Source: Laburnicola sp. R22_1 (Eukaryota > Ascomycota > Dothideomycetes > Pleosporales > Didymosphaeriaceae). From it: a stretch of DNA of 64,000 nt. The DNA lies in contig JACONQ010000003.1 in NCBI GenBank assembly GCA_014281115.1, forward strand, positions 1,984,001 through 2,048,000. The letters run 5' to 3'. Shown here one piece after another: positions 9,949-64,000 of this stretch; the first letter of the stretch is position 1; every line of letters starts with the position of its first letter. A program made the position numbers and the translations under genes. The notes beneath the pieces were generated by a model. It saw only the letters and a program-made list of their open reading frames with translations, was not told the origin of the DNA and made no database searches.

Positions 9949-10391
9949 CGTCCGAGTCTAAGGACGCCGACACGACGTCTTCTGAGTGCTGTGAAGTAGA
10001 CGATAGATTTGGTAATGACTGCACGAAGACAAGGCTGCTTTGGAAGACGGTTCGCCCTGAGAAAGGTCGAGGGCGAAGGCAATCCACGAATCGTAGCTAA
10101 GAAGAAGAGCTCAGATTCGAAAGATATGCGTGAAAAATATTGAAGTAGACGGCCGCGGGAGTTTTGAGGTAGGGAAAAGAAACAGGATATTCCCGTCAGG
10201 GAAGTGGTGGGATAGGCTTCCTCGCGACTCCTCGCAGCGCGGGGCATGCGTGCGAACTCGATGGCCAAGGCCCTTCGCCAAGTCACGTGAGTAGTCAGCC
10301 GTCTTCTCCCAGCTCTGAGGCTAGTGCAGATGCTCCGCTAAACCCGGTCAGGGAGTTCAGGAACAGACATTACCACTGGTAAATTACACTA

Positions 10392-16471: not shown

Positions 16472-16792
16472 TGTTTTCCTTTAGGTGGGAATTGATGGGG
16501 TATTTATACTTAATTGTTGCAACCGACACGATTTTGTTAGTGGAAGGGGCCGAAATTTTTTTTTCGGGCAATATGTGACAAGGAGCCGAACCAAAGTTTA
16601 ACGCAACTATACTTCTATCACATGCGAGTTATACTTTGCTGATGAGGGGAGCTGTAGTAATATTAATGTCTCTAACAGACAATTACTATTCGGATAACAA
16701 TCCGTCCTGTTTAGCTCCGAATGCCCTATCCACGCCATCCCAACTGTTTATACCTTTGGCTTAGGTTTGAGGGAGTTTTGCCTAACATATAT

Positions 16793-35319: not shown

Positions 35320-35387
35320 GACAGGGTAGAAAAGTAATTATAAGCGCGTACATTAATCCAAACTTGCAAATGCACCACTTGTTCTAA

Positions 35388-36090
35388 ATGTGCTCGCTCT
35401 CGCAGCAGAAATACAGAGTAGTAATAGCATTATTTGCAAGTATTATATATGCAGCATCTGCAGGTAGTATAATCTATACCTACCGTCACGGTGCAAGTCA
35501 TAAGTCTGGGATATTTACCTTGACAGTAAGCCGAGGCTATCCAACTCCATCTATCTAAATATTCATTCATCTAGCCTACCGTAGTACAAACCCAGTCATG
35601 GCATCTATATACAATAGGAACGTTAGAATACTGCCTCACGCACGACAGTAAAGTCCAGTGTAACGATCTACCCACCCAACTTAAATATGTCGATCCGCTA
35701 TACCCAAGAAAGAACGATTATATCCTCCGAATAATACAACCAAGTATCCTGTATAGTGCTTTGACATTAGGACTAGTCACTGGAATCTCCAGCCTGACGC
35801 TCTTCTGCATATGGATGCTTGATCCCCAGGCTCATCGCATTCGTGGACTCCAAATCGTTGCATCTTGCATTTCTTGTATCTGCTTTACCATTCTGTTGGT
35901 ACTTATTAATCTTCTCAGTCGACGTCTCTCTGCGATATTATCTTTATCCGTCGCTCGTAGTCCGCTATTCTTGCTTTCCTCTATATTAGTCTGTTGTTCC
36001 GCTGTCCTCGTTATTATAGTATCAATATTTTCAGCTGATCGGATTAGGATGCAAAAGGACCGGTCAATCGGACGAATGAAAAATATTTAG
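35388..36090 (+). CDS. Four-helix membrane protein, two exons, apparently intact
   Basis: ATG 35388 opens exon 1 (138 nt), whose end at 35525 is followed by a GTAAGC donor. The intron 35526-35574 ends in CTAG, and exon 2 runs to 36090 in frame, giving 217 residues. One membrane helix lies at about residues 10-30. An extracellular loop with YCLTHDSKVQC and a likely disulfide follows. Three more helices lie at about 105-200, then a short basic tail. The layout resembles SUR7/PalI-type or other tetraspanning fungal plasma-membrane proteins, but I cannot fix the family. It is convergent with the gene at 36132-36963, with 41 bp between their ends. Confidence 0.65.
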
Positions 36091-36131
36091 CTATAGTTCT
36101 TTGACAAGAATTACATACACACAAAGTCTAT

Positions 36132-36963
36132 TTACATATGTGAAACCCACTCTCCAACATCGTCCCACAAACTTTCGGTAATGCTTATCTCGGGTAGCAC
36201 AGGCGCTATATTATCCCATTCAGAATCTGCCTTAAAGGTCTCCCTGCCATCTGAGTGCGACGTGGTAAAAGGTGCATCCTCAGCAGCATCACCACAATCC
36301 ACTTCGCCATAGTTGCTATGGATATCTTGCACTGTTCCAAACTCGACATCTCGGCGTTGGGAGCCTGCCACACTTTGGCAGCCTTGGAACCAGTCGACTA
36401 TAGAATCGGTCGTGTGAACGGTTGCACTGGCGCCGTATCCATCGCTGCTCCTCCGAACGCAGGCCTCAGGCGTTGGGTGGTTTTGCCGTCTCGTGTGAGC
36501 ATCTTCACTTCTATCCTCATCCGAATCAAGTCGAATTTGCTCTTGGGAGTGTTTAATTAAAAATATTAGGCTTCCAATTCCGAATACCGCGCCCGCAACC
36601 GAGGTGATCATGACGAATCCAGTGGCTTGCTCCGATAAAGTCGAACTAGTAGCTGTAACGATTGCTGGAGCATTCGGGCAGCGTGTAGAGGTCGGTGGGG
36701 GCGGTTCCTTAGTGGGCAGGAATGTGGCAATAGTGGGATTAACTCCCAATGAGGTTTCTGGAATAGAAACAGACGAAGTAGAATAACATCCGCCCGTTGC
36801 CGTCGCTCCTGGATGATGTATATTCGTGGTTCTGTTTAGCCATGGGCGGACTAGAAAACAGTTAGCGCGACACCTGCTTTCCGGTATCCGTGCACCACGT
36901 ACCTAGTCGAGCATTGCACCACCCACAAAGCACGAAGTAACATCCTATACAAGAGAAACGCAT
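36132..36963 (-). CDS. Single-pass type I membrane protein, two exons, apparently intact
   Basis: ATG 36963 begins MRFSCIGCYFVLCGWCNARL, a plausible signal peptide. The intron 36902-36851 (GTACGT...GCTAAC...CTAG) joins in frame, giving 259 residues. A Ser/Thr/Pro-rich outer part with a few Cys residues follows, then a membrane helix (FVMITSVAGAVFGIGSLIFL) and a hydrophilic acidic tail. The pattern suits a fungal cell-surface sensor or adhesin-like protein, but there is no domain that I recognise. No stop codon breaks it. Confidence 0.65.
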
Positions 36964-37422
36964 CGCGACAGGTATGCTTGGAAGATATATTCACGTTACA
37001 CCGACCTCTTTAGCATGTACATATGTATCATTTCGTGTTGCGGCGAGGCTTGCAGGCCCAATACGCCTTTGGTTAATAAATTTAGTGAAATGTTACGGCA
37101 CAGTGGGTGTGCCTTGTCGCTGGCGCGTAGTGGCAAACCATGGAGATTGCTGCGGCGCCTGCGCAGGGTGCCATATGCCAAGGAACTAGCAGAGCTGCCG
37201 CAACAGGGCGTGATTACCAACGATCGATTTGGGTGTCTTCGCAAGGCGCACGCGCTCATGCTGATGGTATTTCATGGGGGCTTTATTGAAAGGCTTGACT
37301 ACTATATTAGGTAGGTAGCACCTGAATCACATTCTAACTAACTATGTAGCCGCAGCGTTCCCACTATTGGGAGCGTCGCCTTGAACCGCCACAGGCAATA
37401 GCTCCGTAACTGTTTGATGAAC
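36964..37422. other. Intergenic
   Basis: Short overlapping frames on both strands (about 36974-37314) show no family features. It probably holds the promoter of the membrane-protein gene at 36132-36963. Confidence 0.4.
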
Positions 37423-37806
37423 CTAATAACACCATGGCAACAGTTTTAGATAGTTTCGCTGCAAACTGGCAATATCCTTCGTCACTTCGATCAAAGACTT
37501 ATCTATCTCATTTGACCATCTGCCCACGCTCTCCATTAATTGTGAGTGCATCTTTTCCATCCTATTCTTGATTTCTGTCACATTGAATTGGAGTTGGTCG
37601 ACACGCGATATGAGGTCTGACAGCTGCTGCATTTCGGGGCTAGAGATGTACGCGCTTGCGACCTGGTTGAGTGGGAGGAAAGAGTTTGTTTGTTCTGCAT
37701 ACTCCCACCCCATGCTAAGGTCCCCTTCCGTTTCTGGGATCGGCGGTAGGTCGGTTTGGAACGCCATTGATTCAGAACCCCAAGCGCAATCTGGGAAGAA
37801 CTCCAT
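37423..37806 (-). CDS. Coiled-coil protein, hypothetical
   Basis: A 127-residue frame from ATG 37806. The second half has a heptad-like helix (LSDLISRVDQLQFNVTEIKN...) suited to dimerise. The first half is acidic with several Trp residues. It is divergent from the Myb/SANT-like gene at 38064, with 257 bp between starts. Possible introns were not excluded. The function is unknown; the pairing suggests a regulatory partner, which is inference. Confidence 0.45.
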   Translation of the reverse strand: MEFFPDCAWGSESMAFQTDLPPIPETEGDLSMGWEYAEQTNSFLPLNQVASAYISSPEMQQLSDLISRVDQLQFNVTEIKNRMEKMHSQLMESVGRWSNEIDKSLIEVTKDIASLQRNYLKLLPWCY

Positions 37807-38063
37807 GTTGATTTGAGGTGGCGTAGGAACACTTAAGAGGATGATTTCGTCTGCGATTTGTGATGGTTACCATAGGCCGGTGTAAAAGTTGAGCTTACAT
37901 ATCTGCGGCGTACCTACCTGTTTACGAGGCCTCCGAGACTTCCGAGACTTCCGCGGTTTCCGCCGGGTACGACGGAATCGGGCGGAATGGGCGGCAACAA
38001 AAGCTTTGCCTTCGCCACGTTATAGTGTTGCGGCTGTGGAATACGGCAACCCTACGCTCCACC

Positions 38064-38444
38064 ATGGCTCCCCGACGCAGACTTGCATATACGCCCGAAG
38101 AAGAAAATACATTGGCAGAGATTATCAAAACACGACCCTCCGCTCCGTGGCCTGTTATACGAAAGGCGTACAATTCTGCCAATCCGCAAAGACACAGAAG
38201 TGTCCCAGCTCTACGCAAGAAGTGGAAAAGCATGCAAAAAGCAAAATTGCTTCCAGCATCGCAGGGTAGCCCCAACACTGCAGCTTCGGAGCATGAGAAA
38301 GAGCCGTTGTCCACCAGTCATGATGTGGACTCTTCTTTCCTCAGTGGCTTTCCATCGCGCGCATCAAGCCCTGCGGGTTCAGGTTTCTTCACCGAAGATC
38401 ATGTTGAACTGAAGGACGAATCGATGGTGCATGTGAGTAACTAG
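38064..38444 (+). CDS. Myb/SANT-like DNA-binding protein, small
   Basis: ATG 38064 opens 126 residues. Residues 5-60 have the spacing of a Myb/SANT-type three-helix domain (YTPEEENTLAEII, WPVIRKAYN, ALRKKWKSMQ). A Ser-rich tail follows. The end may be spliced: a GTGAGT donor at 38433 and an acceptor at 38499 would change only the last residues (a stop follows two codons later). Similar small Myb/SANT proteins have been noted among Starship cargo, to my recollection. No stop or shift interrupts it. Confidence 0.6.
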   Translation: MAPRRRLAYTPEEENTLAEIIKTRPSAPWPVIRKAYNSANPQRHRSVPALRKKWKSMQKAKLLPASQGSPNTAASEHEKEPLSTSHDVDSSFLSGFPSRASSPAGSGFFTEDHVELKDESMVHVSN

Positions 38445-38790
38445 CTCAGCGCATTGTTCCTTGGCTGACTATGGCTTTGGCACATCGTTCTTCAATCAGT
38501 GGGATTAGTTTTCCTGGTGATATCAGGTTTCCTGGCGATCTGGATTATTCGCATTTGGAAGGAAGATCCTTATCTATGGTAGACATCACCAACCGCCACG
38601 GTATCTAGCAGATGTTTCAATGTCATTCAGAATAATATATGCAGTTCTGTACATGTTTTCCACAATTAAGGATTCTTTAACAAGTTCTCCACCTGACTAA
38701 CGCGCAGTAATGCCTATTCCGTACTGTAGTAAGGCGTATCCCATTCTATATTAGCAGAAACCTACTGCGCGTTAGAAAACTCGACACTAG
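38445..38790. other. Intergenic
   Basis: Apart from a possible last-exon remnant of the Myb/SANT-like gene near 38500, nothing is recognised. Confidence 0.4.
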
Positions 38791-48165: not shown

Positions 48166-50021
48166 ACGTACTCCACAACCGAGCGACTCACTTTTGCCAA
48201 GACCCCACCAAAACATGTACTATTCACGACAGTACAGAGTTAATACGAACTATTATCAATAGTCTAAATAGGCCAATCTATTCAGAATCTACTTCTGCAG
48301 GTTATTTACACGTTGTTCTATTGTGCCCAGGCTCGCCGCAGCGTCCACAGCGCCGTTGAGTTGGCTCGCCTCTATTAACGCGCGCCCTCTTCTTTGCCTT
48401 CTTGCCATCACTGCGCGCCGCAAAGTCCTTTAGAGTAGCCAGCCGCTGGCCCTCTTTAGCTGTAAGAGCTCCTTCTTGCTGCAATCGCTTTCTTTTGTGC
48501 GATTTACGTCGCGTGGCGGCCTCATTAGCAGCTTAAAGTTCGGCGTTGCGTTTGGTTATTAATACTAAAGAATGCCCCATTAGCTTGGCGCCTTTAACAA
48601 GCTTTTCCACCGCCTTAACTATATAAGTTGGGGAACTATCCACATGCCTTTGAATCCTCTGCTTAACCAGCATTGATTGTGACCTAAGTTCTGTACTATT
48701 TCGCGGAGTTTGCGACTCCTATGTACTATCGCGAATAGTACATTCTGGAGGCGTACGCAGGCGGACGTTAAGCTGCGATAGTACAGCCTCTGGGTTGTGG
48801 GGCACTAGGCCAGCACCTTGAAAGCCTCCTTTGATATTACTTTCAGTAATTGAAGCCTTAAAAGCAGCAATAAAGCAAGGTAGGAACTCGATTTTAGTGA
48901 TGTGCGTGATGTAGTTGCGCATCAGATTCTCGGCTTGGCGCCCATACGCCTTCTTTAACAGCGCAAAACAACCCACGTCAAGTGGCTACAAGAGGTGCGA
49001 CGAATGTGGAGGCATACAGAGAGTAATAATATTACTCTTTTTGCAGTAATCCTGGAATTCGAGCAAGTTGTGACTTTTGTGGCCATCAATAATGAGCAAA
49101 CGTGCTCCACCAATAGTACGCCTCTTTGTATGCTCATCAAAGTGCTTCAGCCATTGCAGACCAAGCTTATTTGTCGTCTAGCCGTTCTTAGAGACTGCAA
49201 TAACCTAATTATGAGGTAGATCCTTCTCCTTATACTAGGCGGAGAGGTGGTGCTTGCCCCCGAAGATAATGAAGGGTGGGATCCACCACCCCATTGCGTT
49301 GATGCCTTGGATAACTGTTGTCCACTCCCTATTGCCCTGCTGCACCTGCTTTGGCTGTCCTCAACGCTTAGAGCCTGTGACTACCACTCCAGTCAATATT
49401 ATGCCTATTATAAAGCCAGACTCGTCGAAATTGTAGGTGTCCTTATCTAGGATACCATACTTAGCCTTCATGTTCTCCACAAGCCGGAATCAGCCTCGTA
49501 TCACCTCAGGATCCTCCTGGAGGGCTCTCTTATAGTCGTACTTTCGATTAAACTTGACTTTAAGCTCTGGCTGGCGCTTAATAAAGTTTGGAGCCCAGTT
49601 ATAGCCCACAGGGTCGCGATGCCGCTTAGCTAGCAAAGAATTGGCCATATCCTCTATGGCAGCAAGCCGTGGCGGGAATTCTTATAAGTCTAGGTCGAGT
49701 ACATGCTGTATAATCGCCTTCTCCTCTCTTACAGTGAGCTTCATTGTGTTGGGTGGGCAGTCGCGTTGGAAGGCGATTCCAGCGCGTCGTCGGCTGAGGG
49801 TCTTTTGAGGGATGTTATAGATGGCGGCAGCGCGTCTTTGCGAAAGTGACGCGTCTTGTTTGATAGCCTGGATCGCAAGCTGTATACGAGCTTTGTTTGA
49901 CGCTAGTAGTTCGTTGTGTTGTTAAGGCATCGCGTTGTACTATTGATGGTAGCACGTTTTGGTGGGGTCTTGGCAAAAGTGAGTCGCTCGGTTGGGTGAG
50001 TCGCTCGGTTGTGGAGTACGT
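48166..50021 (-). mobile_element. pogo-type DNA transposon, third copy, full length
   Basis: Both ends carry the inverted repeat ACGTACTCCACAACCGAGCG, and the repeat continues to about 55 bp with a tandem GAGTCGCTCGGTT duplicated at the right end. The flanks are TA (possibly TATA). The element sits inside a 17-bp AT-rich repeat. It encodes one transposase on the minus strand, which is nonsense-mutated. Confidence 0.88.
48302..49930 (-). pseudogene. pogo-like transposase with C-terminal zinc knuckle, about ten stops
   Basis: From ATG 49930 the frame reads to 48302 without any shift. It has an N-terminal helix-turn-helix (AAAIYNIPQKTLSRR), then a second DNA-binding region. Catalytic Asp residues lie in YNFDESGF, LLIIDGHKSH and PLDVGCFALLKKAYG. 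A CCHC-type zinc knuckle (RRCGRCGEPGHNRTTCK) ends it. Stops occur after MP, in DLDL, VIRG, GSKR, LSA, PHN, KNG, HLL (where the family has Gln), DST and NAEL. All can be derived from CAA, CAG, CGA or TGG by C-to-T or G-to-A changes. This is typical of RIP on an otherwise full-length transposon gene. Confidence 0.88.
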
Positions 50022-50252
50022 TATAAACTTTTAATTTATATAAACTTTTAATTTATATAAACTTTTAATTTATATAAACTTTTAATTTATATAAACTTTT
50101 AATTTATATAAACTTTTAATTTATATAAACTTTTAATTTATATAAACTTTTAATTTATATAAACTTTTAATTTATATAAACTTTTTATTTATATAAACTT
50201 TTTATTTATATAAACTTTTATTTTATATAAACTTTTATTTATTTTTAATTTA
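50022..50252. repeat. 17-bp AT-rich minisatellite
   Basis: About a dozen tandem copies of TATAAACTTTTAATTTA, with variants having one more T or a missing A near the end. A single matching unit lies on the other side of the transposon (about 48146-48163), so the transposon probably landed in this array. Confidence 0.9.
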
Positions 50253-51952: not shown

Positions 51953-52597
51953 ATGGAATGGTCTAGTTCAGAAAAGTCAAGTGTGAAAAGTCTCTTTCGA
52001 ATCATTTATAGGTTTGAGCAGAGCCACGCTTGGCTCGCAATTCTACATGTTGTTAAAATCCTACATACACAAACTAACGCCAGATGGTCTACATGGTATC
52101 TTGCCCAAGCTGTACTATTTATACAGACATCGTATTGGCCGCTGGATATCTGGCGACGAGCCTTAATAGCGTTGCGCCAATGGCAGTTTGCAAATCCAGG
52201 ATGCATTATAACACTAGTTTATAAACCAGAAGAATTTTACGAATTGTGGAAATTGCTTGAGCACTTTAGTAAGTTTTAATAGGCGAATTACAATTGTAAT
52301 TAACATAAGACAGACAACCACATTAGCCATACTAGTTTAACACGCGTCCGTATGCTAGCATTTGGTCTTTTTCTACCACAGGACTGGGATTTATGGAGCG
52401 ATAGTAATCTAGGGCATACAGACGTACTTAATTGTGCGTATATGTTTTTAGGCCATGTTACAGCTTCAAAGCAGCGATATTGGGAAGTATGTTATTATGA
52501 GCACTGGGACCGCATTGTAAAATCAGAGAGAGCTTCATATTTATTAGATAATCCCTCTAGTTATATTAGATACCTATGGAGAAAACTTAGTTCCTAA
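51953..52597 (+). CDS. Hypothetical two-exon protein, ends at the NLR element border
   Basis: ATG 51953 begins MEWSSSEKSSVKSLF. An intron 52269-52313 (GTAAGT...TTAAC...CAG) joins in frame to the second part (LAFGLFLPQDWDLW, then YMFLGHV, then the end YLWRKLSS), giving about 199 residues. The stop TAA (52595-52597) consists of the TA target-site bases plus the first base of the TIR element, so the insertion created or replaced the natural end. A RIP-decayed relative lies at 15826-16471. The sequence is rich in Trp and Tyr. The function is unknown. Confidence 0.6.
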
Positions 52598-54910
52598 CAT
52601 CCGTCCCTGGGTTACCGGACACCCCATGTGACCGGACAAACTATCGGTACTTTGACTTTCAGCAGCTGCAAAACCTATGCGCACAACGAATATTGCAATA
52701 ATTCTATGAAAATAATACGCTGCAGCTAATCCCAGATGTGGGTAATCTACTTTTTCCCCAAATTTACGTTCGCATCGTTGTCTCCGCGCCTGATTTGTAC
52801 AGCGCCTTGTGTTGTGGCAAAACATAGTTCCCTACCTATAGCGCCAATATTGAGCCTTTTTCGCTCCGGCTTTTTGTAGACCAGCCTTATCCTACCCTCG
52901 CGACCCCCCTCTGATTCTAAGTTATTATCAGCCCTATGCGCGCTGCAGGGCGCGATTTCATGCAGCGCCGCTCCGCCGATTGGTACTTCCAGCGGAAGCG
53001 AACCACCGATCCGGGCTAATGCGAGACCCCGCACGTCTTACGTCATGCACTGGCGGGGTGTTTCATTGCCAAGATATGTGGCTGTGCGGGGTGCACTAGC
53101 GTTCGGATTATTGTTAAATCCGACCTCGGATTGGGAGCAGTGACAAGGCAAGGCCGGGTGCTTGTTTAGTTAGCCAACGCGCTGCCAGCGGCGAAACCAG
53201 CTTCGACATAGCGATCCTAAACACCTTGAGATGCAGTCTAACGCACAGCGATACCTACTTTGTAGTATAGCCACGCAACTGGAGTGCCGAGATCCGCTGT
53301 TGCTCCTTCCGCTAACTGATAGAACGACCCGATTGAGCACTCCGCGCCCTTATGCTTCTTGAGTCCACCGGCGCGCCGATTCCTAGACCAAGCCGCAGCG
53401 AGCTCTGGTCTTGGCCTGTTGAAAGGGAATACGATGTGATAGGAAGGATACAAGCTAGGATAGAGCGCGACGGGCCTAGAAGGAAGCCTGCGCTTCGGCA
53501 TGTAGGTTCAACTAAGCGTTACTGGCAAAACGCCGTCGTTGCAAGCGCACACGAAAGTGGAAAGCCCTGCATGTTTTAGTGATACAGCTGTCGTACGGTT
53601 AAACAACCAGCGGCTCCTTACATGAGCACTGCAATCTCTAGAGCTGTAGAGACGTGCTCCAGTTTGAGCTCTGAGGGTCACTGGGAACTTCGGATTGTTC
53701 ATGTTCGTGAGGGACGAGTACTAGCGGAGCTGTGATGGTGGCTATGCTTGGCAACACTCTACACTATCTACAGTTGCATCCAGCACTCTTTCTCTTCAGC
53801 CAGATCTACAAACCATCGCCTCCGGCGCAACCCCCTGGCAGGTGCGGGTCGGCCATCCTCCCTGCTAGCGGTGGCAACTCGAAGTACCATCTCACATAGG
53901 CTGCACCTTACACTAATTTCTAAGCGAACTGTGGTATTTTGGCTATGCTGTTTTTATGCTTCGTCCGCCCTGCCGCTTTAGAGACCATCTGTTTACCACG
54001 CCTATCTCGTGCTAGGTGTTATTCTGCTTACTAAGCTCTATCGCCTCTAACTGCCATGTTGCGAGAGCTTTGCGAGATGATACAGTAAAGGGATGTTGAG
54101 GACCTAAGGCAACTGTCCGCAGCCCGCAGCAGTCCTCCATTAGTAAGATCGCTTTATTTGTAAGTCCCTGACCCTTTAACGTAAACGCGAGATTGTTCAT
54201 GCTGGTCAGCGTGTCTGGATGCTCCTCCCCAAGCACCCTCGAGCTCGTCTCCATCACTTGCACCTCTAGCTCTTCGGCCTCCTTCCACCGGCCTTGATTC
54301 CTGTACGTCGACGCCAGGTTGGCCATGCTGGTCAGCGTGTCTGGATGCTCCTCCCCAAGCACCCTCGAGCTCGTCTCCATCACTTGCACAAACAGCTCTT
54401 CGGCCTCCTTCCACCGGCCTTGATTCCAAAACGTCGACGCCAGGTTGGCTATGCTGGTCAGCGTGTCTGGATGCTCCTCCCCAAGCACCCTCGAGCTCGT
54501 CTCCATCACTTGCACCTCCAGCTCTTCGGCCTCCTTCCACCGGCCTTGATTCCTGTACGTCGACGCCAGGTTGGCCATGCTGGTCAGCGTGTCTGGATGC
54601 TCCTCCCCAAGCACCCTCGAGCTCGTCTCCATCACTTGCACAAACAGCTCTTTGGCCTCCTTCCACCGGCCTTGATTCCAAAACGTTGACGCCAGGTTGG
54701 CCATGCTGGTCAGCGTGTCTGGATGCTCCTCCCCAAGCACCCTCGAGCTCGTCTCCATCACTTGCACAAACAGCTCTTCGGCCTCCTTCCACCGGCCTTG
54801 ATTCCTGTACGTCGACGCCAGGTTGGCCATGCTGGTCAGCGTGGAAGGATGCTCCTCCCCAAGCACCCTCGAGCTCGTCTTCATCACTTGCACAAACAGC
54901 TCTTCGGCCT
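52597..54910. repeat. Left inverted arm of the NLR element
   Basis: This is the inverse of about 59995-62932. From the end inward: a terminus, a family A-like subterminal block (to about 53037), a block with two ORFs (53238-53501 and 53508-53702, minus strand), the motif GGGAGGATGGCCGACCCGCA inverted near 53850, and the NLR 3' end. The two arms differ by scattered, mostly C/T or G/A changes. Confidence 0.85.
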
Positions 54911-56906
54911 CGTCATATCGTCCGTCAGTGAGCAATGCCATAGCGCATTTCCATGCTAGGTCTATCCTATCTCCCTTCTCTTCTTTAGGAACATCGTGAG
55001 ATAGAGCATACCTAGCATGGGGAATTAATCGTCTCCATTTGCTTTGATTTCCGTGATTATTGTCTGGGAACATTCTAAGTAGTCGTGCAATAGCGTGTTG
55101 ACTCCATTGCTCTAGCCTCTCGTGCTTTTGGAGCCATCCCCGTAGAGCACTATGTACTAGCTGGTGAACATCGAGCGCAGACTCGGCAGGTCGCCTAGTA
55201 ACAAGCCCGTAGCTGTTGAGGATTTGTATCGCAGCTTCCCTTTCACGAGGCGATAATGCTTCTAGAAGATCGAGCGGGATGTCTTTTCGGTCTACCGAGG
55301 CCGCAAGAAACAGATATTCTGCTGCTAGTGGATCACTACCGCGGATCTGGTCCATTGAGATGAGAAGTGTGGTGGCTACAGGACCTGTTGTGTCATATTC
55401 TTGTAGCCTGCCCTCTAATGGTACACGGCTACGCTCGCGAGCTTCCCCCTTTTGCTTCAGCAATTGTGATCGGTAGTGTTCTAGCGTAGTGTTTCTGGTG
55501 TTGATGTACGCTGCTGCTTGGACAATTGCTAGGGGAAGATGCGATAACTCTTGCAGCAAAAGTCTCGCCTCCTGTTGCTCACGTTCTGAAACTGGAGTCT
55601 TCAAATAGTTCTGCAACGTCCTTCTTGCTACATCGGGCGTCATTTCCCTAAGCTGCACAACCTTCTGTAGTTCTAGCCTCTCAGTTATCTTGCTGTTGGT
55701 AGTCGTGAAGATGATCGAACAGAGTTCGGACTGTGGCAGGTAGTCGATCAAGTTGGCGGCCCCTGGTGCTGTGGGCATCCCGCTGGACCCCAGGTCTATG
55801 CGATCCACGTTGTCGAAAATGAGCAACCACTGCCTTGACCCCTTTCTGCTTTGATGAAGTTTGACCAGCTGCCTGATATCCGCCTTCTCATCTGCCCAGC
55901 CAGGAATGTCAAGCTTTTGCGCAATGCTCGCATATGACTGATAGAGGCTGTCTGCGTTGCTTGCATCAATCCAGAAGACCGAGCAGCTCTTATTCTTCCG
56001 TCTTGTCTGGTATGCAAGCTCGAGCGCTAGCTGTGATTTGCCTGTCCCCGGTGGTCCGGTTATTGCCATCCTTGTGGTTTCCTTGCCCGTGAAGAGCGTT
56101 GCTTCTAGTTCGGCAAGCTGTGACTCCCGGCCAACAAAATGGTCGTTCTGGGAAAACGGGATGATAGCCGGAGCTGAACCGGCTGCTTCCACTTCAATTT
56201 GGAGTCTTCTCCACGCCTGCTCCTTTCCCTCGCCATAGGAAGTAGACATAAAGACGTCGAGAAGTCCGAGAAGACAGTATACCCCGTCTTCCTCTTCAGT
56301 TGTCCGGCGATGTTTGGCCCATTCCATTCGCTTGGGTATAGTAAATCCGTCCAATGGGCAGTTCCGCAAGGCCTGGACTGGAATGCTAGTAATGTCGTGT
56401 AGTAGCTGCTCGAGGGATTGTTTATCGCCTATCCGCCGTCCTTCGAAAGAAAAGAACTCGACTGATGCTGGAGCAATAAGCTCTTGAAGCGTCCAGCCCC
56501 TAGTAAACCATTCGCTCGCCCGAAAGGATGCCTCCCACGCACGTTCTTCGCGCATGTCAGCTGCAGTGGGTGCTGAAACATCTGGTAGGAAAACATAGCA
56601 TCTTGCTGCATCTCTGTACCAATGAAACATCGAGTTGATTGCTCTCGAGAGCTCACGAAGGTTCCATTTATTAATGCAACACGTGTCGATCCAGAAGTAC
56701 TGAAGCTGGTCCTTGGCCGCCTGTTCCGCACAGAACTCGATCTTTCGATAACCCTTCTTCTCTTTGTAGGTGTTGCCTCCGATATCTTCGAAGAGAATCT
56801 CAGAATCTCCCCATCTGTGTGAAAGGATAGCATAGCGTGGAATAGTCTTCCCGCTGAAGTCGGTCAAGACGAGTCTCTTGGAATGATTGAAGTGAAGAAG
56901 CCGCAT
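54012..56906 (-). CDS. HET-NB-ARC-TPR protein (fungal NLR)
   Basis: The ATG chosen is 56906 (MRLLHF), giving 964 residues without an intron. The HET domain (1-215) shows YAILSHRW (25-32), WIDTCCI (72-78) and WFTRGWTLQELIAP (133-146); HET domains trigger cell death in heterokaryon incompatibility. The NB-ARC domain has Walker A GPPGTGKS (284-291), Walker B LLIFDNVD (361-368) and HLPLA (456-460). About five nearly identical 42-residue TPR units plus degenerate caps end it, presumably the ligand-sensing part. The gene diverges from the NLR at 57539 and shares its last TPR cap and 3' end almost exactly. It appears intact and is probably part of a non-self recognition system. Confidence 0.92.
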   Translation of the reverse strand: MRLLHFNHSKRLVLTDFSGKTIPRYAILSHRWGDSEILFEDIGGNTYKEKKGYRKIEFCAEQAAKDQLQYFWIDTCCINKWNLRELSRAINSMFHWYRDAARCYVFLPDVSAPTAADMREERAWEASFRASEWFTRGWTLQELIAPASVEFFSFEGRRIGDKQSLEQLLHDITSIPVQALRNCPLDGFTIPKRMEWAKHRRTTEEEDGVYCLLGLLDVFMSTSYGEGKEQAWRRLQIEVEAAGSAPAIIPFSQNDHFVGRESQLAELEATLFTGKETTRMAITGPPGTGKSQLALELAYQTRRKNKSCSVFWIDASNADSLYQSYASIAQKLDIPGWADEKADIRQLVKLHQSRKGSRQWLLIFDNVDRIDLGSSGMPTAPGAANLIDYLPQSELCSIIFTTTNSKITERLELQKVVQLREMTPDVARRTLQNYLKTPVSEREQQEARLLLQELSHLPLAIVQAAAYINTRNTTLEHYRSQLLKQKGEARERSRVPLEGRLQEYDTTGPVATTLLISMDQIRGSDPLAAEYLFLAASVDRKDIPLDLLEALSPREREAAIQILNSYGLVTRRPAESALDVHQLVHSALRGWLQKHERLEQWSQHAIARLLRMFPDNNHGNQSKWRRLIPHARYALSHDVPKEEKGDRIDLAWKCAMALLTDGRYDEAEELFVQVMKTSSRVLGEEHPSTLTSMANLASTYRNQGRWKEAEELFVQVMETSSRVLGEEHPDTLTSMANLASTFWNQGRWKEAKELFVQVMETSSRVLGEEHPDTLTSMANLASTYRNQGRWKEAEELEVQVMETSSRVLGEEHPDTLTSIANLASTFWNQGRWKEAEELFVQVMETSSRVLGEEHPDTLTSMANLASTYRNQGRWKEAEELEVQVMETSSRVLGEEHPDTLTSMNNLAFTLKGQGLTNKAILLMEDCCGLRTVALGPQHPFTVSSRKALATWQLEAIELSKQNNT
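54154..54910 (-). repeat. TPR-encoding 126-bp tandem repeats, left gene
   Basis: Five near-identical units with a divergent first unit and cap. The units alternate between the YRNQG and FWNQG forms. Unit differences are block replacements: TAC AGG versus TTT TGG, and TTT versus GAG (LF/LE). Rare single changes give Met to Ile and Glu to Lys. Confidence 0.92.
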
Positions 56907-57538
56907 CGTTACCACATCGTTTCTCAGTCGAGGAAGCAGAAAATACAGACAATCTAGGGCAAGGCGCTGTTAGGAACTGGCTAAGATGGGTGGATATGGA
57001 TTGTGGGAGAAAGCGCGGTCGGTGGAATATGATGGCCGAGTATGGGTTGCGAGGGCGGCCTCCCAAGGCTGTGCACAGGGGGCGCTCGACGTGCTCAGCC
57101 GCGCCCGGCTGACTTGCACAGGCGAGCGCTCGTGTCTCGTGTTCGCCCGCAAACATGCGCAAGCAATTCAACAAATTTTATCTGCTTGCTAATTTAACTT
57201 AATCGATGCGGCATTGAGGAAATAAGCCTTGCAGGCTTAGCATCCTACCGGCTGGGTGGAGTGATATCGATAAGAGGCGAGCCCGTCCTGCTGCGCGCCT
57301 CAGGTCCGCAACCTCCAGCCACAACTGGGAGCCTGAGCCTGAGCAAGTCAGCCGGGCGGGGCTGAGCCCACCGAGCGCCTCTAGTACACAGCCTCGAGAT
57401 GCCGCCTTCACAGCCTATCTTCAGCAATCATTTTCACTATTTTTGGTGGTTTTACTTATAAGTGTACCCTCCTGCCTTTGGAATACGCGCCTATACCTGC
57501 CCGCCGCACCCAGCTTGTGTACGCACCGATGATCCGAA
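56907..57538. promoter_or_regulatory. Shared divergent promoter of the two NLR genes with an inverted repeat
   Basis: The 632-bp space between the ATGs contains an imperfect inverted repeat: 57053-57120 (GGCGGCCTCCCAAGGCTGTG ... CGCCCGGCTGACTTGC) and its inverse at about 57343-57407. Each arm is about 65-70 bp and lies on the side of one gene. The repeat could place equal regulatory sites before each gene, or could be the rest of the duplication that made the pair. No TATA box is obvious. Confidence 0.6.
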
Positions 57539-60500
57539 ATGTCTGGTGTTGAAGCCATTACCGCCACCCAGCTGATCGACGCTTGCATCGGCATCGCTAA
57601 TACGATCATCGACATTGGGCGTGCCGTCCACGACGCTCAAGGATTACCACCAAAGCTTCGAGAGCTGCTCGAGAAGCTACCAGCGATCCAAGAACTGTTG
57701 GAGAGTGCGCAGGAGAGCTGCGAGGAAGGGAGGATCACGGAGGATGCCAGCAAGAGCGCACAGCCGATCTTGAAACAATGCGCGGAGGCTTTAGCTGAAC
57801 TGAGGGACATATTCAGGAAAGCCTGCCCAAGGGATGGGGAGAATCGTACCAAGCGCATCTGGAGAGGCGCAAAGACTGTCTTCTTCGGCCGAGACAGCCA
57901 GGTACAGAAGCTTCTCGTGACTATTCAAGACGACTTGAGACTGTTGGAGCAGAAGGAGATCTATGTTATTGGCGACAAGCTGGACGCGCTGCAGCAAGTT
58001 ACGCAAGGACTAGCGGATAATGTGGACGGCAAGTATACACACACTGGAGCGGGCAACATTATTGCCAATGAAGGCGGCAGTCCTACGAATTATGTAGTTG
58101 GTGGAAGCAACAACCGGCAGATCAACAATCCTGGGGTATACAATGAGGGCCCTTCAAGTACGTAGTTATCGTTCTCACGTAGTCATACCAACTTCTCAAT
58201 CGAGGCAGTTTCTTTTCATTAGCATCCGTTCAGTGCGTGCCTAAGTGCTCTTTGGCAAATCCGTACTGACCACGCTGGTGTTAGCACATAATTACACTTA
58301 TCTACCACCAGGTAAACTCGTCCTTGAATGCTATTATAATGGGTGTGCTTGTTTACTGGCCGCTCCAGGCAAGTCGCCGCGCTCCTGGCCATAGCTAATA
58401 CCATCTCTAGCTAGACCAGAGACCCCGCCGGTCCCTTCCTGCGCCATCCCCTTCCGCCGCGACCCGGACTTCGTCGACTGCGGAACGCTGCTCGATCAGA
58501 TACGCGAGAAATGCGCTGCGCCGGCATCGCGGATAGCGCTGGTGGGCCTGGGCGGCGTGGGGTGAGCCAGGAGAACCCAAGGCCAGTGCACGTCGCTAAC
58601 GCAGACACAGAAAGTCGCAGCTCGCCATCGAACACTGCTACCAAACCGCGGATGAATATGCAGAGACGTGGGTATTCTGGGTGCATGCCAGCAACGCGGA
58701 CCGCATCGAACAAGGCTACCGAGATATCGCAGACCAGGTCAGGCTGGCTGGCCGGAACGATCCGCACGCAGACGTTTTCAAGCTGGTTCATAATTGGTTG
58801 CGTAACGAGAAGAACGGCAGGTGGTTGCTGGTCCTCGATAATGCCGACAACGCTGCTGCCCTTACTCTGCCAGCAAGCAATGACCTGAAGACGCAGGCGA
58901 GCAGCGGAGATGGCTCTCGTCCACGGTTCCTCTCGTCGTATCTGCCCCAGAGCAAGAACGGCTCGATGCTGGTGACCAGTCGGACGAGGAGCGTAGCTTT
59001 GCAGCTGGTGGAGCAGAGCGATATTCTTTCTATTGAGCCCATGGACGACACGAGCGGCCAAGAGCTTCTGCGAAAGAAGCTGGGGGCGGAGGTGGACGAG
59101 GACCGCATTGCCGAGCTAGCAAGGACCCTCGAGTTCATGCCACTCGCTCTCGTGCAGGCGGCCGCGTACATCCGACAACGAGCACCTCGGTGCTCGGTGC
59201 AGCAATACTTAGAGGAGTACCACAAGAGCGACAAGAAACGGACAGGCCTGCTTGAATACGACGGAGGCCGCCTTCGGAGAGACGAAGAAGCAAAGAACTC
59301 TATTCTTATCACGTGGCAAATCTCGTTCGACCACATCCTCCAAGCAAGGCAGTCAGCAGCAGACCTGCTGTCGTTGATGAGCTTCTTTGACCAGCAAGGG
59401 ATTCCTGAGGCGCTTCTTCGCAGCCAAGAGAGGATGGAGAACAGACACGGGGGTGTGGAAGCTGCGTGTAGAGACAGCGAAGACAGCGACAGCAACGATA
59501 ACGAATCAGAAGCAAGCGTTGACGACGGGTTTGAAGAGGACATTGTCACGCTAAGAAACTACTTGTTTATTGAGGTTACTACTAATGCTGGCACGTTCGA
59601 TATGCATGGCCTTGTGCAGCTAGCCACGCGGAAGTGGTTGGAAGGCCAGGGCCAACTGGAAACATGGAAGCAGCAGTACATCAACCATCTTTGCGCAGCA
59701 TTTCCAACAGGGGAGCACGAGAACTGGATTCAGTGTCAGGCGCTCTTTCCGCACGCCAAGTCGGCATTGTTGCAGCCGCCTAAGTCCGAGGAATCTCTGC
59801 AAAAGTGGGCTCTATTGTTATATAATGCAGCGTGGTATGCGTGGCAGAAAGGAAACATAGGTGATGCAGAGAAACTATCAGTAAAGTCAATGAAGGTTAG
59901 GGAAAAGCTTCTCGGGGAAGAGGATACAGACACGTTAAGCAGTATGGCAATGGCAGGGTTAGCAGCAAATCTTGCAGGCCAATGGAAGAAGGCCGAAGAG
60001 CTGTTTGTGCAAGTGATGGAGACGAGCTCGAGGGTGCTTGGGGAGGAGCATCCAGACACGCTGACCAGCATGGCCAACCTGGCGTCGACGTACAGGAATC
60101 AAGGCCGGTGGAAGGAGGCCGAAGAGCTGTTTGTGCAAGTGATGGAGACGAGCTCGAGGGTGCTTGGGGAGGAGCATCCAGACACGCTGACCAGCATGGC
60201 CAACCTGGCGTCGACGTTTTGGAATCAAGGCCGGTGGAAGGAGGCCGAAGAGCTGTTTGTGCAAGTGATGGAGACGAGCTCGAGGGTGCTTGGGGAGGAG
60301 CATCCAGACACGCTGACCAGCATGGCCAACCTGGCGTCGACGTACAGGAATCAAGGCCGGTGGAAGGAGGCCGAAGAGCTGGAGGTGCAAGTGATGGAGA
60401 CGAGCTCGAGGGTGCTTGGGGAGGAGCATCCAGACACGCTGACCAGCATGGCCAACCTGGCGTCGACGTTTTGGAATCAAGGCCGGTGGAAGGAGGCCGA

Positions 60501-61518
60501 AGAGCTGTTTGTGCAAGTGATGGAGACGAGAAAGAGGGTGCTTGGGGAGGAGCATCCAGACACGCTGACCAGCATGGCCAACCTGGCGTCGACGTACAGG
60601 AATCAAGGCCGGTGGAAGGAGGCCGAAGAGCTGGAGGTGCAAGTGATGGAGACGAGCTCGAGGGTGCTTGGGGAGGAGCATCCAGACACGCTGACCAGCA
60701 TGGCTAACCTGGCGTCGACGTTTTGGAATCAAGGCCGGTGGAAGGAGGCCGAAGAGCTGTTTGTGCAAGTGATGGAGACGAGAAAGAGGGTGCTTGGGGA
60801 GGAGCATCCAGACACGCTGACCAGCATGGCCAACCTGGCGTCGACGTTTTGGAATCAAGGCTGGTGGAAGGAGGCCGAAGAGCTGTTTGTGCAAGTGATG
60901 GAGACGAGAAAGAGGGTGCTTAGGGAGGAGCATCCAGACACGCTGACCAGCATAGCCAACCTGGCGTCGACGTACAGGAATCAAGGCCGGTGGAAGGAGG
61001 CCGAAGAGCTGGAGGTGCAAGTGATGGAGACGAGAAAGAGGGTGCTTGGGGAGGAGCATCCAGACACGCTGACCAGCATGGCCAACCTGGCGTCGACGTT
61101 TTGGAATCAAGGCCGGTGGAAGGAGGCCGAAGAGCTGTTTGTGCAAGTGATGGAGACGAGAAAGAGGGTGCTTGGGGAGGAGCATCCTTCCACGCTGACC
61201 AGCATGGCCAACCTGGCGTCGACGTACAGGAATCAAGGCCGGTGGAAGGAGGCCGAAGAGCTGGAGGTGCAAGTGATAGAGACGAGCTCGAGGGTGCTTG
61301 GGGAGGAGCATCCAGACACGCTGACCAGCATGAACAATCTCGCGTTTACGTTAAAGGGTCAGGGACTTACAAATAAAGCGATCTTACTAATGGAGGACTG
61401 CTGCGGGCTGCGGACAGTTGCCTTAGGTCCTCAACATCCCTTTACTGTATCATCTCGCAAAGCTCTCGCAACATGGCAGTTAGAGGCGATAGAGCTTAGT
61501 AAGCAGAATAACACCTAG
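57539..61518 (+). CDS. SesA-like, Gly/Asn motif, NB-ARC and TPR protein (fungal NLR), three exons
   Basis: The model joins 57539-58157, 58411-58561 and 58611-61518. Intron 1 is 58158-58410 (GTACGT, GCTAAT, TAG; an acceptor at 58419 also keeps frame). Intron 2 is 58562-58610 (GTGAGC, GCTAAC, CAG) and splits Walker A. The product has 1,225 residues. Residues 1-150 are helical and resemble the SesA/NACHT_N-type N-terminal domain of fungal NLRs. Residues 164-204 are Gly/Asn-rich with GGSNNRQINNPGVYN, similar to NLR-linked amyloid signalling motifs (sigma-like). The NB-ARC domain has GLGGVGKS (252-259) and WLLVLDNAD. About ten 42-residue TPR units plus caps follow. It appears intact. The sigma-like reading is inference. 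Confidence 0.85.
58158..58410 (+). other. Intron 1 of the plus-strand NLR gene
   Basis: Donor GTACGT, branch-like GCTAAT at 58394 and acceptor TAG. At 253 bp it is much longer than the others in this window. If retained, the first exon would end in a 208-residue protein with the SesA-like and Gly/Asn parts only (stop at 58163-58165). Confidence 0.65.
58562..58610 (+). other. Intron 2 of the plus-strand NLR gene, within Walker A
   Basis: A 49-bp intron with GTGAGC donor, GCTAAC branch site (58595-58600) and CAG acceptor. Splicing restores GLGGVGKS across the junction (phase 2, GG|A codon) and joins the frame to the long third exon. Confidence 0.88.
59995..61320 (+). repeat. TPR-encoding 126-bp tandem repeats, right gene
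   Basis: About ten near-identical units preceded by a half-unit. The variants are YR/FW (TACAGG/TTTTGG), LF/LE (TTT/GAG), SSRV/RKRV (AGCTCG/AGAAAG) and PD/PS (GAC/TCC). Single transitions also occur: GWW for GRW, LREEHP for LGEEHP, IANLA for MANLA, VIE for VME. The YR form is nearly always followed by LE and the FW form by LF. Confidence 0.92.
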
Positions 61519-62932
61519 CACGAGATAGGCGTGGTAAACAGATGGTCTCTAAAGCGGCAGGGCGGACGAAGCATAAAAACAGCATAGCCAAAATACCACA
61601 GTTCGCTTAGAAATTAGTGTAAGGTGCAGCCTATGTGAGATGGTACTTCGAGTTGCCACCGCTAGCAGGGAGGATGGCCGACCCGCACCTGCCAGGGGTT
61701 GCGCCGGAGGCGATGGTTTGTAGATCTGGCTGAAGAGAAAGAGTGCTGGATGCAACTGTAGATAGTGTAGAGTGTTGCCAAGCATAGCCACCATCACAGC
61801 TCCGCTAGTACTCGTCCCTCACGAACATGAACAATCCGAAGTTCCCAGTGACCCTCAGAGCTCAAACTGGAGCACGTCTCTACAGCTCTAGAGATTGCAG
61901 TGCTCATGTAAGGAGCCGCTGGTTGTTTAACCGTACGACAGCTGTATCACTAAAACATGCAGGGCTTTCCACTTTCGTGTGCGCTTGCAACGACGGCGTT
62001 TTGCTAGTAACGCTTGGTTGAACCTATATGCCAAAGCGCAGGCTTCCTTCTAGGCCCGTCGCGCTCTATCCTAGCTTGTATCCTTCCTATCACATCGTAT
62101 TCCCTTTTAACGGGCTGAGACCAGAGCTCGCTGCGGCTTGGTCTAGGAATTGGCGCGCTAGTGGACTCGAGAAGCATAAGGGCGCGGAGTGCTCGATCGG
62201 GTCGTTCTATCAGTTAGCGGAAGGAGCAACGGCGGATCTTAGCACTCTAGTTGCGTGGCTATACTATAAAGTAGGTATTACTGTGTGTTAGACTGCATCT
62301 TGAGGTGTTTGGGATCGCTATGTCAAAGCTGGTTTCGCCGCTGGCAGCGCGTTGGCTGACTAAACAAGCACCCGGCCTTGCCTTATCACTGCTCCCAATC
62401 CGAGGTCGGATTTAACGATAATCCGAACGCTAGTGCACCCCGCACAGCCACATATCTTGGTAATGAAACACCCCGCCAGTGCATGACGTAAGACGTGCGG
62501 GGTCTCGCATTAGCCCGGATCGGTGGTTCGCTTCCGCTGGAAGTACTAATCGGCGGAGCGGCGCTGCATGAAATCGCGCCCTGCAGCGCGCATAGGGCTG
62601 ATGATGACTTAGAATTAGAGGGGGGTTGCAAGGGTAGGATAAGGCTGGTCTACAAAAAGCCGGAGCGAAAAAGGCTTAATGTTGGCGCTGTGGGTAGGGA
62701 ACTATGTTTTGCCACAACACAAGGCGCTGTACAAATCAGGCGCGGAGACAACGATGCGAACGTAAATTTGGGAAAAAAGTAGATTACCCACATCTGGGAT
62801 TAGCTGCAGCGTATTATTTTCATAGAATTATTGCAATATTCGTTGTGCGCATAGGTTTTGCAGCTGCTGAAAGTCAAAGTACCGATGGTTTGTCCGGTCA
62901 CATGGGGTGTCCGGTAACCCAGGGACGGATGT
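61320..62932. repeat. Right inverted arm of the NLR element (outer part)
   Basis: This mirrors 52597-54200. It contains the TPR cap and stop of the plus-strand NLR, the block near 61665-61690 (GGGAGGATGGCCGACCCGCA), two short ORFs (61827-62021 and 62028-62291), the family A-like subterminal block from about 62494 and the terminus. The arm as a whole begins near 59995 within the TPR repeats. Confidence 0.88.
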
Positions 62933-62934
62933 TA

Positions 62935-64000
62935 GCATAACTAATCTTCTGTATTAAAGCTTTTATATGCTAGAGAGGTGCATTTTAATAGTCTAGCCAC
63001 TGCTAAAACCAAAATAGGTGGCGCTTCTAGAGTACAAATATCCCAACTGAGCACTTGCTAACTAAAATAATCTCTCCTTATGGTATGTCGACTTAGGTAC
63101 AGATCTCTAACTAACATTTATCAGGCCATGCTTACGGTTATCTATTCAGTTAATCTGCCTTATGGCTGTAGCATTTGACACCTTTATACCCCCTTGGCAA
63201 CATGTTAGATCCGACTCCTGGATAGATAATCTTACTAGCGCTTAATGTTAGCCATTTCGGTTGCCTTACAGAGAATTACAGCCTCTACTTACTTTGGAAA
63301 TCTAAGCTTAAGATGATGTGGATTTAAAAGCATCATGCCAGAGTCATTAGCGCAGTTTTCTGTGGCATATACCAAGCAGTGTCCGCCCTTATCTGGGCGA
63401 ATAAGGCTAATATAAGCGTTGTGCCATTCGCTGTAAACCATACTCTCCACAAGGTACTGCCGTTTTATGCAACTAGTTGCTTCTTCTACTGGATACTAAT
63501 GGGTGCGGTTTCGTGAAGGTTTTCCTACTCCTTGCGCTAATGTTGTGATAACAATACTAACGGCACCAGGTTCTCTAATGCGGTTGTCTCGTGGGAGGAG
63601 ATTTAAGTCTTGGATGGTGCTCGCTTGACTAAGGTAGGTGAGCATTAAACAGAGCAGGTAGGTAATCCTGTATATTGTGGCGGTTGTTGAATGTTGTGGT
63701 TGTATGTGGCCCTGCGTTCGAGGGCAAATGAGCGTAAGATAGAAAGCAAGAACGAAATCGAGTCTGTTGGATTGGTATTTGATCTTGTATAAGGTTGTGA
63801 TGGAAACGACTTATGGCTGGGCAGGCTACTTATAGTGCGGGACACGGGGGCGAATAGTGCATGTTATGGTGAGGGGGCGCGACGTTAACTTTATAATCCC
63901 GAACGGTTGAATAAATAACAGCCTCACGTTTTATTGACTGCAGGTCCCTCGCAGTGGCTTTGCGCTCCCGACGGCGCCCCGCATTAATAGATAAGTGAAT
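62935..64000. other. Downstream flank of the NLR element
   Basis: AT-rich, with no gene recognised. A short minus-strand frame (63645-63845) is probably chance. No partner of the gene at 51953-52597 was recognised in the first bases after the element. Confidence 0.4.

Follow-up and report, generated by a model that had tools for sequence, protein, structure and literature searches.

The repertoires of NLR and HET genes in fungi are large, patchy and fast-changing, and the routes by which complete receptor genes are dispersed and diversified remain largely open. Gene-capturing Pack-MULEs, like foldback elements, are non-autonomous TIR elements with host-type genes. Fot-like TIRs contain a tandemly repeated box near the end. 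In the Pleosporales, ToxhAT is described as a TIR-bounded element of ~14 kb with evidence of mobility and 74-bp TIRs, for which that account reports no target-site duplication; its TIRs show RIP-type mutations in two of three species, and a member of the fungal NLR family, a patatin-TPR gene, is part of its cargo (PMC6737239). Starships, a class defined by a tyrosine recombinase captain, reach hundreds of kilobases and include NLR genes, among them the SesA-NACHT type, in their cargo (PMC12134995). In Podospora anserina, the NWD (het-d/het-e) family of STAND receptors is characterized by near-identical repeats, a repeat domain that evolves in concert between loci, and RIP in members (PMC1805685), and in the 62.7-Mb genome of Pyrenochaeta lycopersici HET genes are expanded, 42 of them lying close to repeats (PMC6034849). 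Our search of the openly licensed PMC literature found no long-TIR palindromic transposon with paired NLRs. The element described here, E1, lies in a 64,000-nucleotide stretch (the window) of a 63.9-Mb Pleosporales genome and is probably of this kind: a long-TIR DNA transposon that was inserted in one piece at a TA with an NLR pair as its cargo, that was mobilized in trans by a pogo/Fot-type transposase, and that has undergone conversion between its arms and exchange of cargo.

The unit, its TA target and its empty sites

E1 is a 10,336-bp unit at 52597-62932. It starts at 52597 with ACATCCGTCCCTGGGTTACCGGACA..., the exact inverse of which closes the unit at 62932. The two ends agree without exception over their outermost 45 bp, the first mismatch being at 52642. 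A TA adjoins each side (52595-52596 and 62933-62934), so that the perfect inverse termini and flanking TAs of the original prediction were both recovered. Allowing up to three mismatches, the terminal 25-mer has three matches in the window, two of which are E1's own ends, while 0.00 are expected from the shuffled window.

When the flanks of E1 are joined at one TA, they match C20:3226501-3226680 and C8:1633097-1633276 at 99% over 180 of 180 bp, and this homology extends 0.9–1.0 kb to each side at 97.6–99.5% identity (2-kb stretches compared). An empty site holding a single TA, suggested earlier as a check, is thus available as paralogous target copies within the same genome. At least one spanning paralogous empty site exists for seven of 14 tested elements, E1 and six others. 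In eight empty loci that were aligned, no indel occurs at the joint, and the joint is TA in seven and TG in the paralogue of E12.

The genome contains at least 15 elements (E1–E15) of 5.3–16.6 kb with homologous ends. TA adjoins 30 of their 30 ends, the two flanks of E3 being copies of each other, and the terminal pattern of the family has 31 genome matches versus none for a reversed control. NLR or HET genes are on board in 11 of 16 elements (E1–E16, one of which was found by its NLR); other elements that combine such termini with NLR cargo, a search for which had also been named as a check, are present. The single-TA empty paralogues and the dispersed, TA-flanked family support the proposal of a mobile unit carrying a recognition gene pair, and the empty sites and the TA at every end speak against the alternative offered beside it, an inverted duplication bordered by transposon ends. 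That alternative holds that an NLR 3' end was duplicated locally in inverse orientation, that transposon ends border it by chance, and that no unit moved. It draws on the arms taking in the 3' parts of both NLR genes at 96.7% identity and on the palindrome of E3, which extends past the element ends and implies that larger inverted duplications do occur in this genome. However, single-TA empty sites for E1 and six more elements, together with 15 dispersed elements whose ends are homologous and uniformly TA-flanked, make it very improbable; inverted duplication without mobility was rejected as largely refuted by the empty sites.

The near-identity of the E2 and E3 arms across 6–7.5 kb would fit a palindrome created during assembly. 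The arms of E1, however, differ at 75 sites, and the genes in its two centres are not the same; other family members repeat this architecture with arms 73–99.8% identical, and insert-free sites are present elsewhere in the genome. On these grounds an assembly artefact was rejected, and we give it next to no credence.

The receptor pair and its palindromic arms

The two NLR genes of E1 are arranged head to head. The left gene, on the minus strand at 54012-56906, is a single open frame of 964 aa in which Pfam recognizes HET, NB-ARC and TPR_10 (seven stretches). The right gene, on the plus strand at 57539-61518, encodes 1,225 aa with SesA, NB-ARC/NACHT and TPR_10 (12 stretches); its predicted exons are 57539-58157, 58411-58561 and 58611-61518, and an internal stop is absent. 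Pfam thereby bears out the claim of two different effector/NB-ARC halves in the middle, HET with NB-ARC on the left and SesA with NB-ARC on the right, and both receptors have the fungal NLR layout of an N-terminal effector-type domain, NB-ARC/NACHT and repeats. Between them lies a common 5' region of 632 bp (56907-57538), presumably a divergent promoter region. Both genes end outwards and have an identical C-terminus. The two genes are predicted to be intact, and the pair may act in non-self recognition or programmed cell death.

The arms, 52594-54911 and 60619-62935, are 96.7% identical; their alignment of 2,318 columns contains 75 mismatches and a single gap. The homologous stretch of the right NLR reaches back to 59976. 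The original prediction gave inverted arms of 2.3 and 2.9 kb that include both NLR 3' ends, and both lengths are valid because the right-hand NLR has extra 42-residue TPR units. Its wording of a "short-TIR palindrome" has to be abandoned, since the TIR proper of E1 measures ~1,281 bp. This long TIR, or shell, spans 52597-53877 (+) on the left and 61652-62932 (−) on the right, as delimited by the homologous ends of the 15 elements, the arm alignment, a fall in family conservation from 0.83 to 0.55 at ~1,280 (11 representative arms) and the end of E1-E2 identity at element position 1281/1285. At the border of shell and cargo is a conserved inner box of ~50 bp (53828-53877, + strand; right counterpart 61652-61701, − strand), where homology with E2 ends and homology with E16 begins. 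Conservation per 40 bp does not single out the box inside the shell (0.83 versus a mean of 0.82); what sets it apart is that the breakpoints fall there and that short shells have it too.

All 41 shell substitutions between the arms of E1 fall in an outer zone, 52597-53524 (mirrored at 62005-62932), and all 41 are transitions (23 CpA, 17 CpG and 1 CpC). Adjoining it is a substitution-free zone of 727 bp with one 1-bp indel, 53525-54251 (mirrored at 61279-62004), which runs from the shell into the NLR 3' end. Over the first 1,300 bp, transitions and transversions between arms number 41/0 in E1, 36/1 in E2, 32/1 in E5 and 45/0 in E7, while six older elements (E4, E9, E11–E14) have many transversions. 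RIP may be the mutational process behind the arm transitions in young shells, although its classical, CpA-biased form is only part of the fit because CpG transitions in E1 are nearly as common as those at CpA.

The 3' ends of the two NLR genes within an element differ at 0 of 319 positions in E1 and at 7 of 510 in E7; E1 and E7 differ from each other at 42–43 of 319, far above the within-element counts. This likeness within E1 and E7 points to gene conversion from arm to arm. E16 adds nothing to the argument, because its 3' ends are about equally far from each other (5 differences) and from E1 (5–6). A different source of the likeness would be repeated formation of new palindromes by template switching or break-induced copying. 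Such renewal explains the arms of E2, where the first 1,285 bp differ by 36 transitions and a single transversion and the next 6.3 kb are free of substitutions, as well as conversion does, and the E3 palindrome reaching beyond its ends also favours it. In E1, however, the substitution-free tract is internal, with 41 substitutions outside and codon-scale TPR differences inside, as expected of a conversion tract, and TPR copy number is unequal between the two genes. We regard renewed palindrome formation as rather unlikely, and arm-to-arm conversion as the preferred source of the shared 3' ends.

Re-assortment of cargo among shells

E1 and E2 have shells that are 96% alike and different cargo; E1 and E3 are 92% alike over the outer ~0.5 kb, and again their cargo differs. 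The reverse combination is found in E1 and E16, whose NLR pairs are 98.3% identical over 6,418 ungapped bp (dS 0.007, 3 synonymous changes in 640 codons) while the shells are dissimilar apart from the ends and the box. Both breakpoints of this re-assortment lie at the inner box, suggesting that the shell swaps cargo with related elements by recombination at or near it.

The window contains a degraded relative at 4733-10846, with family-type ends at 4733 (+), 7187 (−) and 10846 (−). Pieces of shell are found in it at 6528-7187 and at 10385-10848, and pieces of a pogo-type transposase at ~7190-9167. E16 has a TA before its left end and none before its weak right end. In comparisons with eight shells, its left shell outscored the best of 20 shuffles every time, clearly with the relative in the window (94 versus a shuffle maximum of 40) and with E9 (72 versus 34) but barely with E1 (41 versus 40); its right shell outscored the shuffles with one shell only. 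The left shell, with a low GC of 0.42, could be a strongly decayed related shell. E6 and E15 have the same insertion inside the shell in both arms of each element.

Among the cargo genes, dN/dS is 0.22 for the E1-E12 HET-NLR and 0.44–0.49, on few changes, for recent pairs. The SesA exon occurs in three places only, all three of them pair elements; no copy was found outside the pair elements. Among the ten closest HET-NLR loci (best 70 of 108 candidates), seven sit in described elements, one at C1:184 kb lies between family ends, and another on C3 lies between related arms; the tenth is at C7:917 kb.

Movement, captains and described systems

The two NLRs account for the long open frames of E1, which has no DDE transposase of its own and is at most a non-autonomous member of the pogo/Fot type of Tc1/mariner. 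Its likely mover is a pogo/Fot-type transposase acting in trans. Pogo-type pieces lie among the family ends in the window, in the right arm of E16 and, at the C3 locus, in either arm; E3 contains pogo pieces (DDE_1, HTH_Tnp_Tc5) along with a frame bearing an NDC10_II domain. We found no pair of matching family termini that encloses an intact transposase. Resident pogos, two in E10 and one in E6, and an element inside E9 were rejected as movers, since each is a nested insertion bordered by TIRs of its own that differ from those of the family. A genome-wide search for DDE_1 scored the best 150 of 2,759 candidates, copies too many to inform.

A DUF3435 recombinase of captain type is encoded at C20:1975914-1978288, ~58–60 kb upstream of E1 and in the same orientation; inside E1 there is no DUF3435 match. 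The NLR genes might be ordinary cargo of a giant Starship-type element in which the palindromic unit is a passive passenger. Besides the nearby recombinase, 16 of 37 family places lie <100 kb from any of 40 captain points, a zone that covers 10.8% of the genome (binomial p 4e-7), and window positions 16600-16810 and 34003-38789 correspond to C8:1673578-1673788 (97%) and C8:1649962-1654749 (99%), in order between another captain and the empty site of E1. Yet this partly collinear C8 copy lacks E1, indicating an independent entry of E1, and the greater part of the window has no C8 partner among the best 36 of 348 and 29 of 2,586 candidates. Proximity to captains is also weaker for the 16 described elements, five of which are <100 kb (p 0.02) and two <50 kb (p 0.23) from a captain point; E7, E9, E11, E12 and E15 are >600 kb away, and the contigs of E3, E6 and E13 have no captain point. 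A Starship as sole mover was rejected given the empty collinear copy and the many distant elements, and the passenger reading is improbable. E1 instead suggests one route of NLR genes into Starship-like regions, carried in on a smaller transposon.

The data presented above have led us to propose a model in which E1 inserted as one unit at TA, with a pogo/Fot-type transposase as its likely mover in trans. Gene conversion between the 1.28-kb arms would allow the two receptors to keep one evolving 3' end, and recombination at the inner box, or close to it, would let the shell trade cargo with related elements. A broader role as a receptor-cassette platform is a tentative extension, somewhat doubtful at present: long-armed shells might dock complete immune genes at the inner box and spread them, also into Starship-like regions, while the arms copy sequence of the repeat domain from one receptor to another whose effector end differs, yielding matched pairs. 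With its visible empty sites, shell/cargo exchange and likeness between two receptor types, the family is a concrete vehicle that opens receptor dispersal, pairing and diversification to tests in collections of strains.

The TIRs of the E1 family resemble Fot-like TIRs in their tandemly repeated box, and very long TIRs, immune-type cargo and the lack of an internal transposase set E1 apart from pogo/Fot1 elements. The TA target is shared with the pogo/Fot1 branch of Tc1/mariner (PMC7325037). Like ToxhAT, E1 is a TIR-bounded element of the Pleosporales with NLR-family cargo, but the hAT-like transposase association, 74-bp TIRs and lack of target-site duplication described there (PMC6737239) do not apply to it. 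The TIRs of E1 measure 1.28 kb, its family occurs in many copies with varied cargo at TA targets that are also seen empty, and E1 carries paired NLRs with their 3' ends inside the arms and no transposase. As in Starships (PMC12134995), NLR genes travel in mobile DNA, and E1 sits in a captain-associated region, but it has no captain, lies at a TA target, ends in long TIRs and is missing where that region recurs in partly collinear form. With the NWD family E1 shares fungal STAND receptors and within-set likeness of repeat domains, whereas the exchange described there takes place in a single gene family, both inside a locus and from one locus to another, and concerns WD40 repeats (PMC1805685). 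In E1, the palindromic arms of a single transposon bring together two receptor types with TPR repeats, placed head to head. Unlike Pack-MULEs and foldback elements, the family carries cargo mostly of one functional class; several of its genes are complete, and the family is under constraint (dN/dS 0.22).

Structure of E1 and its insertion at TA

The window corresponds to C20:1984001-2048000. In an assembly of 63.9 Mb in 26 contigs, the palindromic unit E1 (window 52597-62932; 10,336 bp) carries the perfect inverse termini of the original prediction: 45 bp match without mismatch and TA adjoins either side. The two arms share 96.7% identity across 2,318 aligned columns and enclose two NLR genes arranged head to head, with predicted start codons 632 bp apart. 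The left gene encodes a HET-NB-ARC-TPR protein of 964 aa in a single open frame, while the right gene encodes a SesA-NB-ARC-TPR protein of 1,225 aa in three predicted exons without internal stop. The 3' ends of both genes fall just inside the long terminal inverted repeats, here called shells. Among named proteins, the left product (residues 1-660) is most similar to those of Bimuria (88%), Lentithecium (87%) and Decorospora (82%), which points to a Pleosporales host.

E1 inserted as one unit. The proposed single-TA empty site was found at two paralogous loci of the same genome, C20:3226501-3226680 and C8:1633097-1633276 (99%, 180/180 bp), and homology around both extends 0.9-1.0 kb per side at 97.6-99.5% in the 2-kb stretches fetched. 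Queries joining 90 bp of each flank with one TA were built for 14 elements (E1, E2 and E4-E15) and run in two pooled genome searches; among the best 40 of 115 and the best 40 of 433 candidates, spanning empty sites were recovered for at least seven (E1, E5, E8, E9, E12, E13, E15). The joint was free of indels in all eight empty loci aligned, and the empty paralogue of E12 (91%) has TG at the expected target TA.

The element family and its cargo

The terminal 164 bp of E1 match at least 40 genomic places, mostly as inward-facing pairs (best 40 of 42 candidates). Further copies with E1-type ends, for which the original prediction proposed a search, are part of this genome: 15 pairs of 5.3-16.6 kb were fetched (E1-E15), and additional pairs and single ends, such as C1:180780-202259, lie outside this set. 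TA adjoins 30/30 ends of E1-E15, the flanks of E3 being copies of each other, and the family terminal pattern (up to three mismatches) gave 31 genomic matches against none for the reversed control. The near-perfect palindrome of E3 (C6:160401-177388) extends beyond both element ends into the flanks. Homologous ends are common to all 15 elements, limited in E3, E5 and E8 to the outer 0.5-0.6 kb (with an inner piece in E5). The shell was taken to extend to ~1,280 because conservation among 11 representative aligned arms falls there from 0.83 to 0.55. Its NLR led to a sixteenth element, E16 on C7, with a clear left end and a weak right end lacking TA. MITE-sized stretches between facing family-type ends were also seen at window 14054-14922 (869 bp) and C20:2062258-2062817 (560 bp).

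NLR-type genes occur in 9/16 elements (E1, E2, E7, E11-E16) and a HET gene in two more (E6, E9), so that 10 of the 15 elements found by termini alone carry NLR or HET cargo. Pfam scans covered E1, E2, E4-E6, E8, E9, E11, E12, E15 and parts of E3 and E10; E7, E13, E14 and E16 were classed by similarity to E1. E2 (C26:694045-710614), with an NLR-type gene of ~20 TPR units in each arm, was so classed on 34% identity to the E1 NB-ARC region, where its Pfam matches are TPRs and DUF7779, not NB-ARC. E15 (C25:696048-710131), of the same shell family, encodes HET, an NPHP3_N-family P-loop domain and ankyrin repeats in a 1,592-aa frame, and therefore the repeat domain of the cargo varies too; its right arm holds an additional 3.7-kb insertion. 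E4 (C8:1606096-1612682), also of this shell family, has no NLR and carries genes for an OTT_1508-like deaminase and a MYND-type protein (the latter match just below the Pfam cut-off). E8 has a zinc-ribbon gene, E5 a collagen-like gene, and E3 and E10 other transposon genes and frames without assignment. The SesA exon is confined to three genomic places (14/14 candidates scored), all in elements with a HET-NLR and SesA-NLR pair: E1, E7 and E16.

Some NLR copies are broken: E13 and E14 contain stops, the E7 HET gene is split over two frames and the E16 SesA gene is interrupted. The NLR cargo genes nevertheless appear to have been constrained while the family spread, judging from one divergent comparison, the HET-NLRs of E1 and E12 (dN/dS 0.22, 450 codons). 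For recent pairs, dN/dS is 0.49 in E1-E16 (8 changes) and 0.44 in E11-E12 (18 changes).

Re-assortment, arm likeness and decay

Aligned sequences show that shells and cargo re-assort. The E1 and E2 shells are 96% identical, E3 is 91-93% identical to both over the outer ~0.5 kb, and the cargo differs in all three. Conversely, E1 and E16 share the same NLR pair (98.3% over 6,418 ungapped bp, dS 0.007) in shells that are dissimilar except for the termini and the inner box, a conserved ~50 bp at the shell/cargo border. In E1 and E7 the pair is ~93% identical and oppositely oriented, within shells ~65% alike. The likeness of E1 to E2 stops at element position 1281 and that to E16 begins at 1232, with the inner box between. 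Among 16 segments chosen by hand from 11 elements (all but E3, E5, E8, E13 and E14) and a degraded relative at window 4733-10846, the box is clear in 15 and poor in the E12 right arm. Recombination at or near the inner box would swap shells.

Arms within an element resemble each other beyond the box. Over the adjoining ~320 bp, comparison of the HET-side copy with the SesA-side copy gives 0/319 differing sites in E1 and 7/510 in E7, against 42-43 differences per 318-319 sites between E1 and E7. The two E16 copies differ from each other at 5/319 sites and from E1 at 5-6, and E16 is therefore neutral here. A 727-bp tract without substitutions runs in E1 from the shell into the gene end, and E6 and E15 each hold an identical insertion in both arms. 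Gene conversion is the best explanation of this likeness, and the arms would in this way hold the two receptors close in sequence. Renewed palindrome formation is a possible alternative, above all for E2, where the outer 1.28 kb of the arms differ by 37 substitutions and the next 6.3 kb by none.

In the first 1,300 bp, arm-arm transitions/transversions number 41/0 in E1, 36/1 in E2, 32/1 in E5 and 45/0 in E7, and 24/3 in E10 and 15/2 in E15, where only part of the arm was aligned. For E3, E6 and E8 the count is one difference at most over these 1,300 bp; the arms of E4, E9 and E11-E14 differ by many transversions. The NLR repeats of E1 and E7 show mixed substitution types. This pattern fits RIP-like mutation of multi-copy shells in young elements; the E1 contexts are 23 CpA, 17 CpG and 1 CpC, a CpG share outside the classical RIP prediction.

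Surroundings, candidate mover and known systems

A DUF3435 recombinase of the type that serves as Starship captain lies at C20:1975914-1978288, 5.7 kb before the window and ~58-60 kb upstream of E1, and a DUF3723 gene lies at window 30055-31488; much of the window may therefore be a Starship-like region. Window 16600-16810 and 34003-38789 correspond to C8:1673578-1673788 (97%) and C8:1649962-1654749 (99%), with order and orientation preserved; both C8 stretches lie between a second captain and the E1 empty site, so E1 probably entered one copy of such a region. Among the matches listed, the rest of window 15001-52590 has no C8 partner there. The family itself is independent of captains, as the association is weak for the described elements, 5/16 of which lie within 100 kb of a captain point (88 DUF3435 matches merged by hand into 40 points). 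For all 37 family places, including single ends and MITE-sized elements, the count is 16, against 10.8% of the genome.

A pogo/Fot-type mover is suggested by the TA targets and by a doubled box close to the termini, a feature that resembles Fot1 ends. Pogo-type pieces of one kind are interspersed with family ends at window 7190-9078; they recur in the right arm of E16 and in a further HET-NLR locus on C3 (C3:315801-323800). Both inverted arms of this locus match the E16 right arm including the piece, and no element ends were seen there. None of these pieces amounts to an intact transposase flanked by matching ends. Pogo elements in E10 and E6 were rejected as the mover since they are nested. 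A ~1.85-kb repeat at window 48176-50023 has at least 27 other genomic copies at 93-96%, several of them coinciding with DDE_1 matches.

Our search of the openly licensed literature listed no paper that describes transposons with long arms, paired NLRs and exchangeable cargo. The nearest known systems are ToxhAT, with TIR-bounded mobility of an NLR-family gene (PMC6737239), an NLR carried by a Starship (PMC12134995), and fungal receptors subject to concerted evolution and RIP (PMC1805685).
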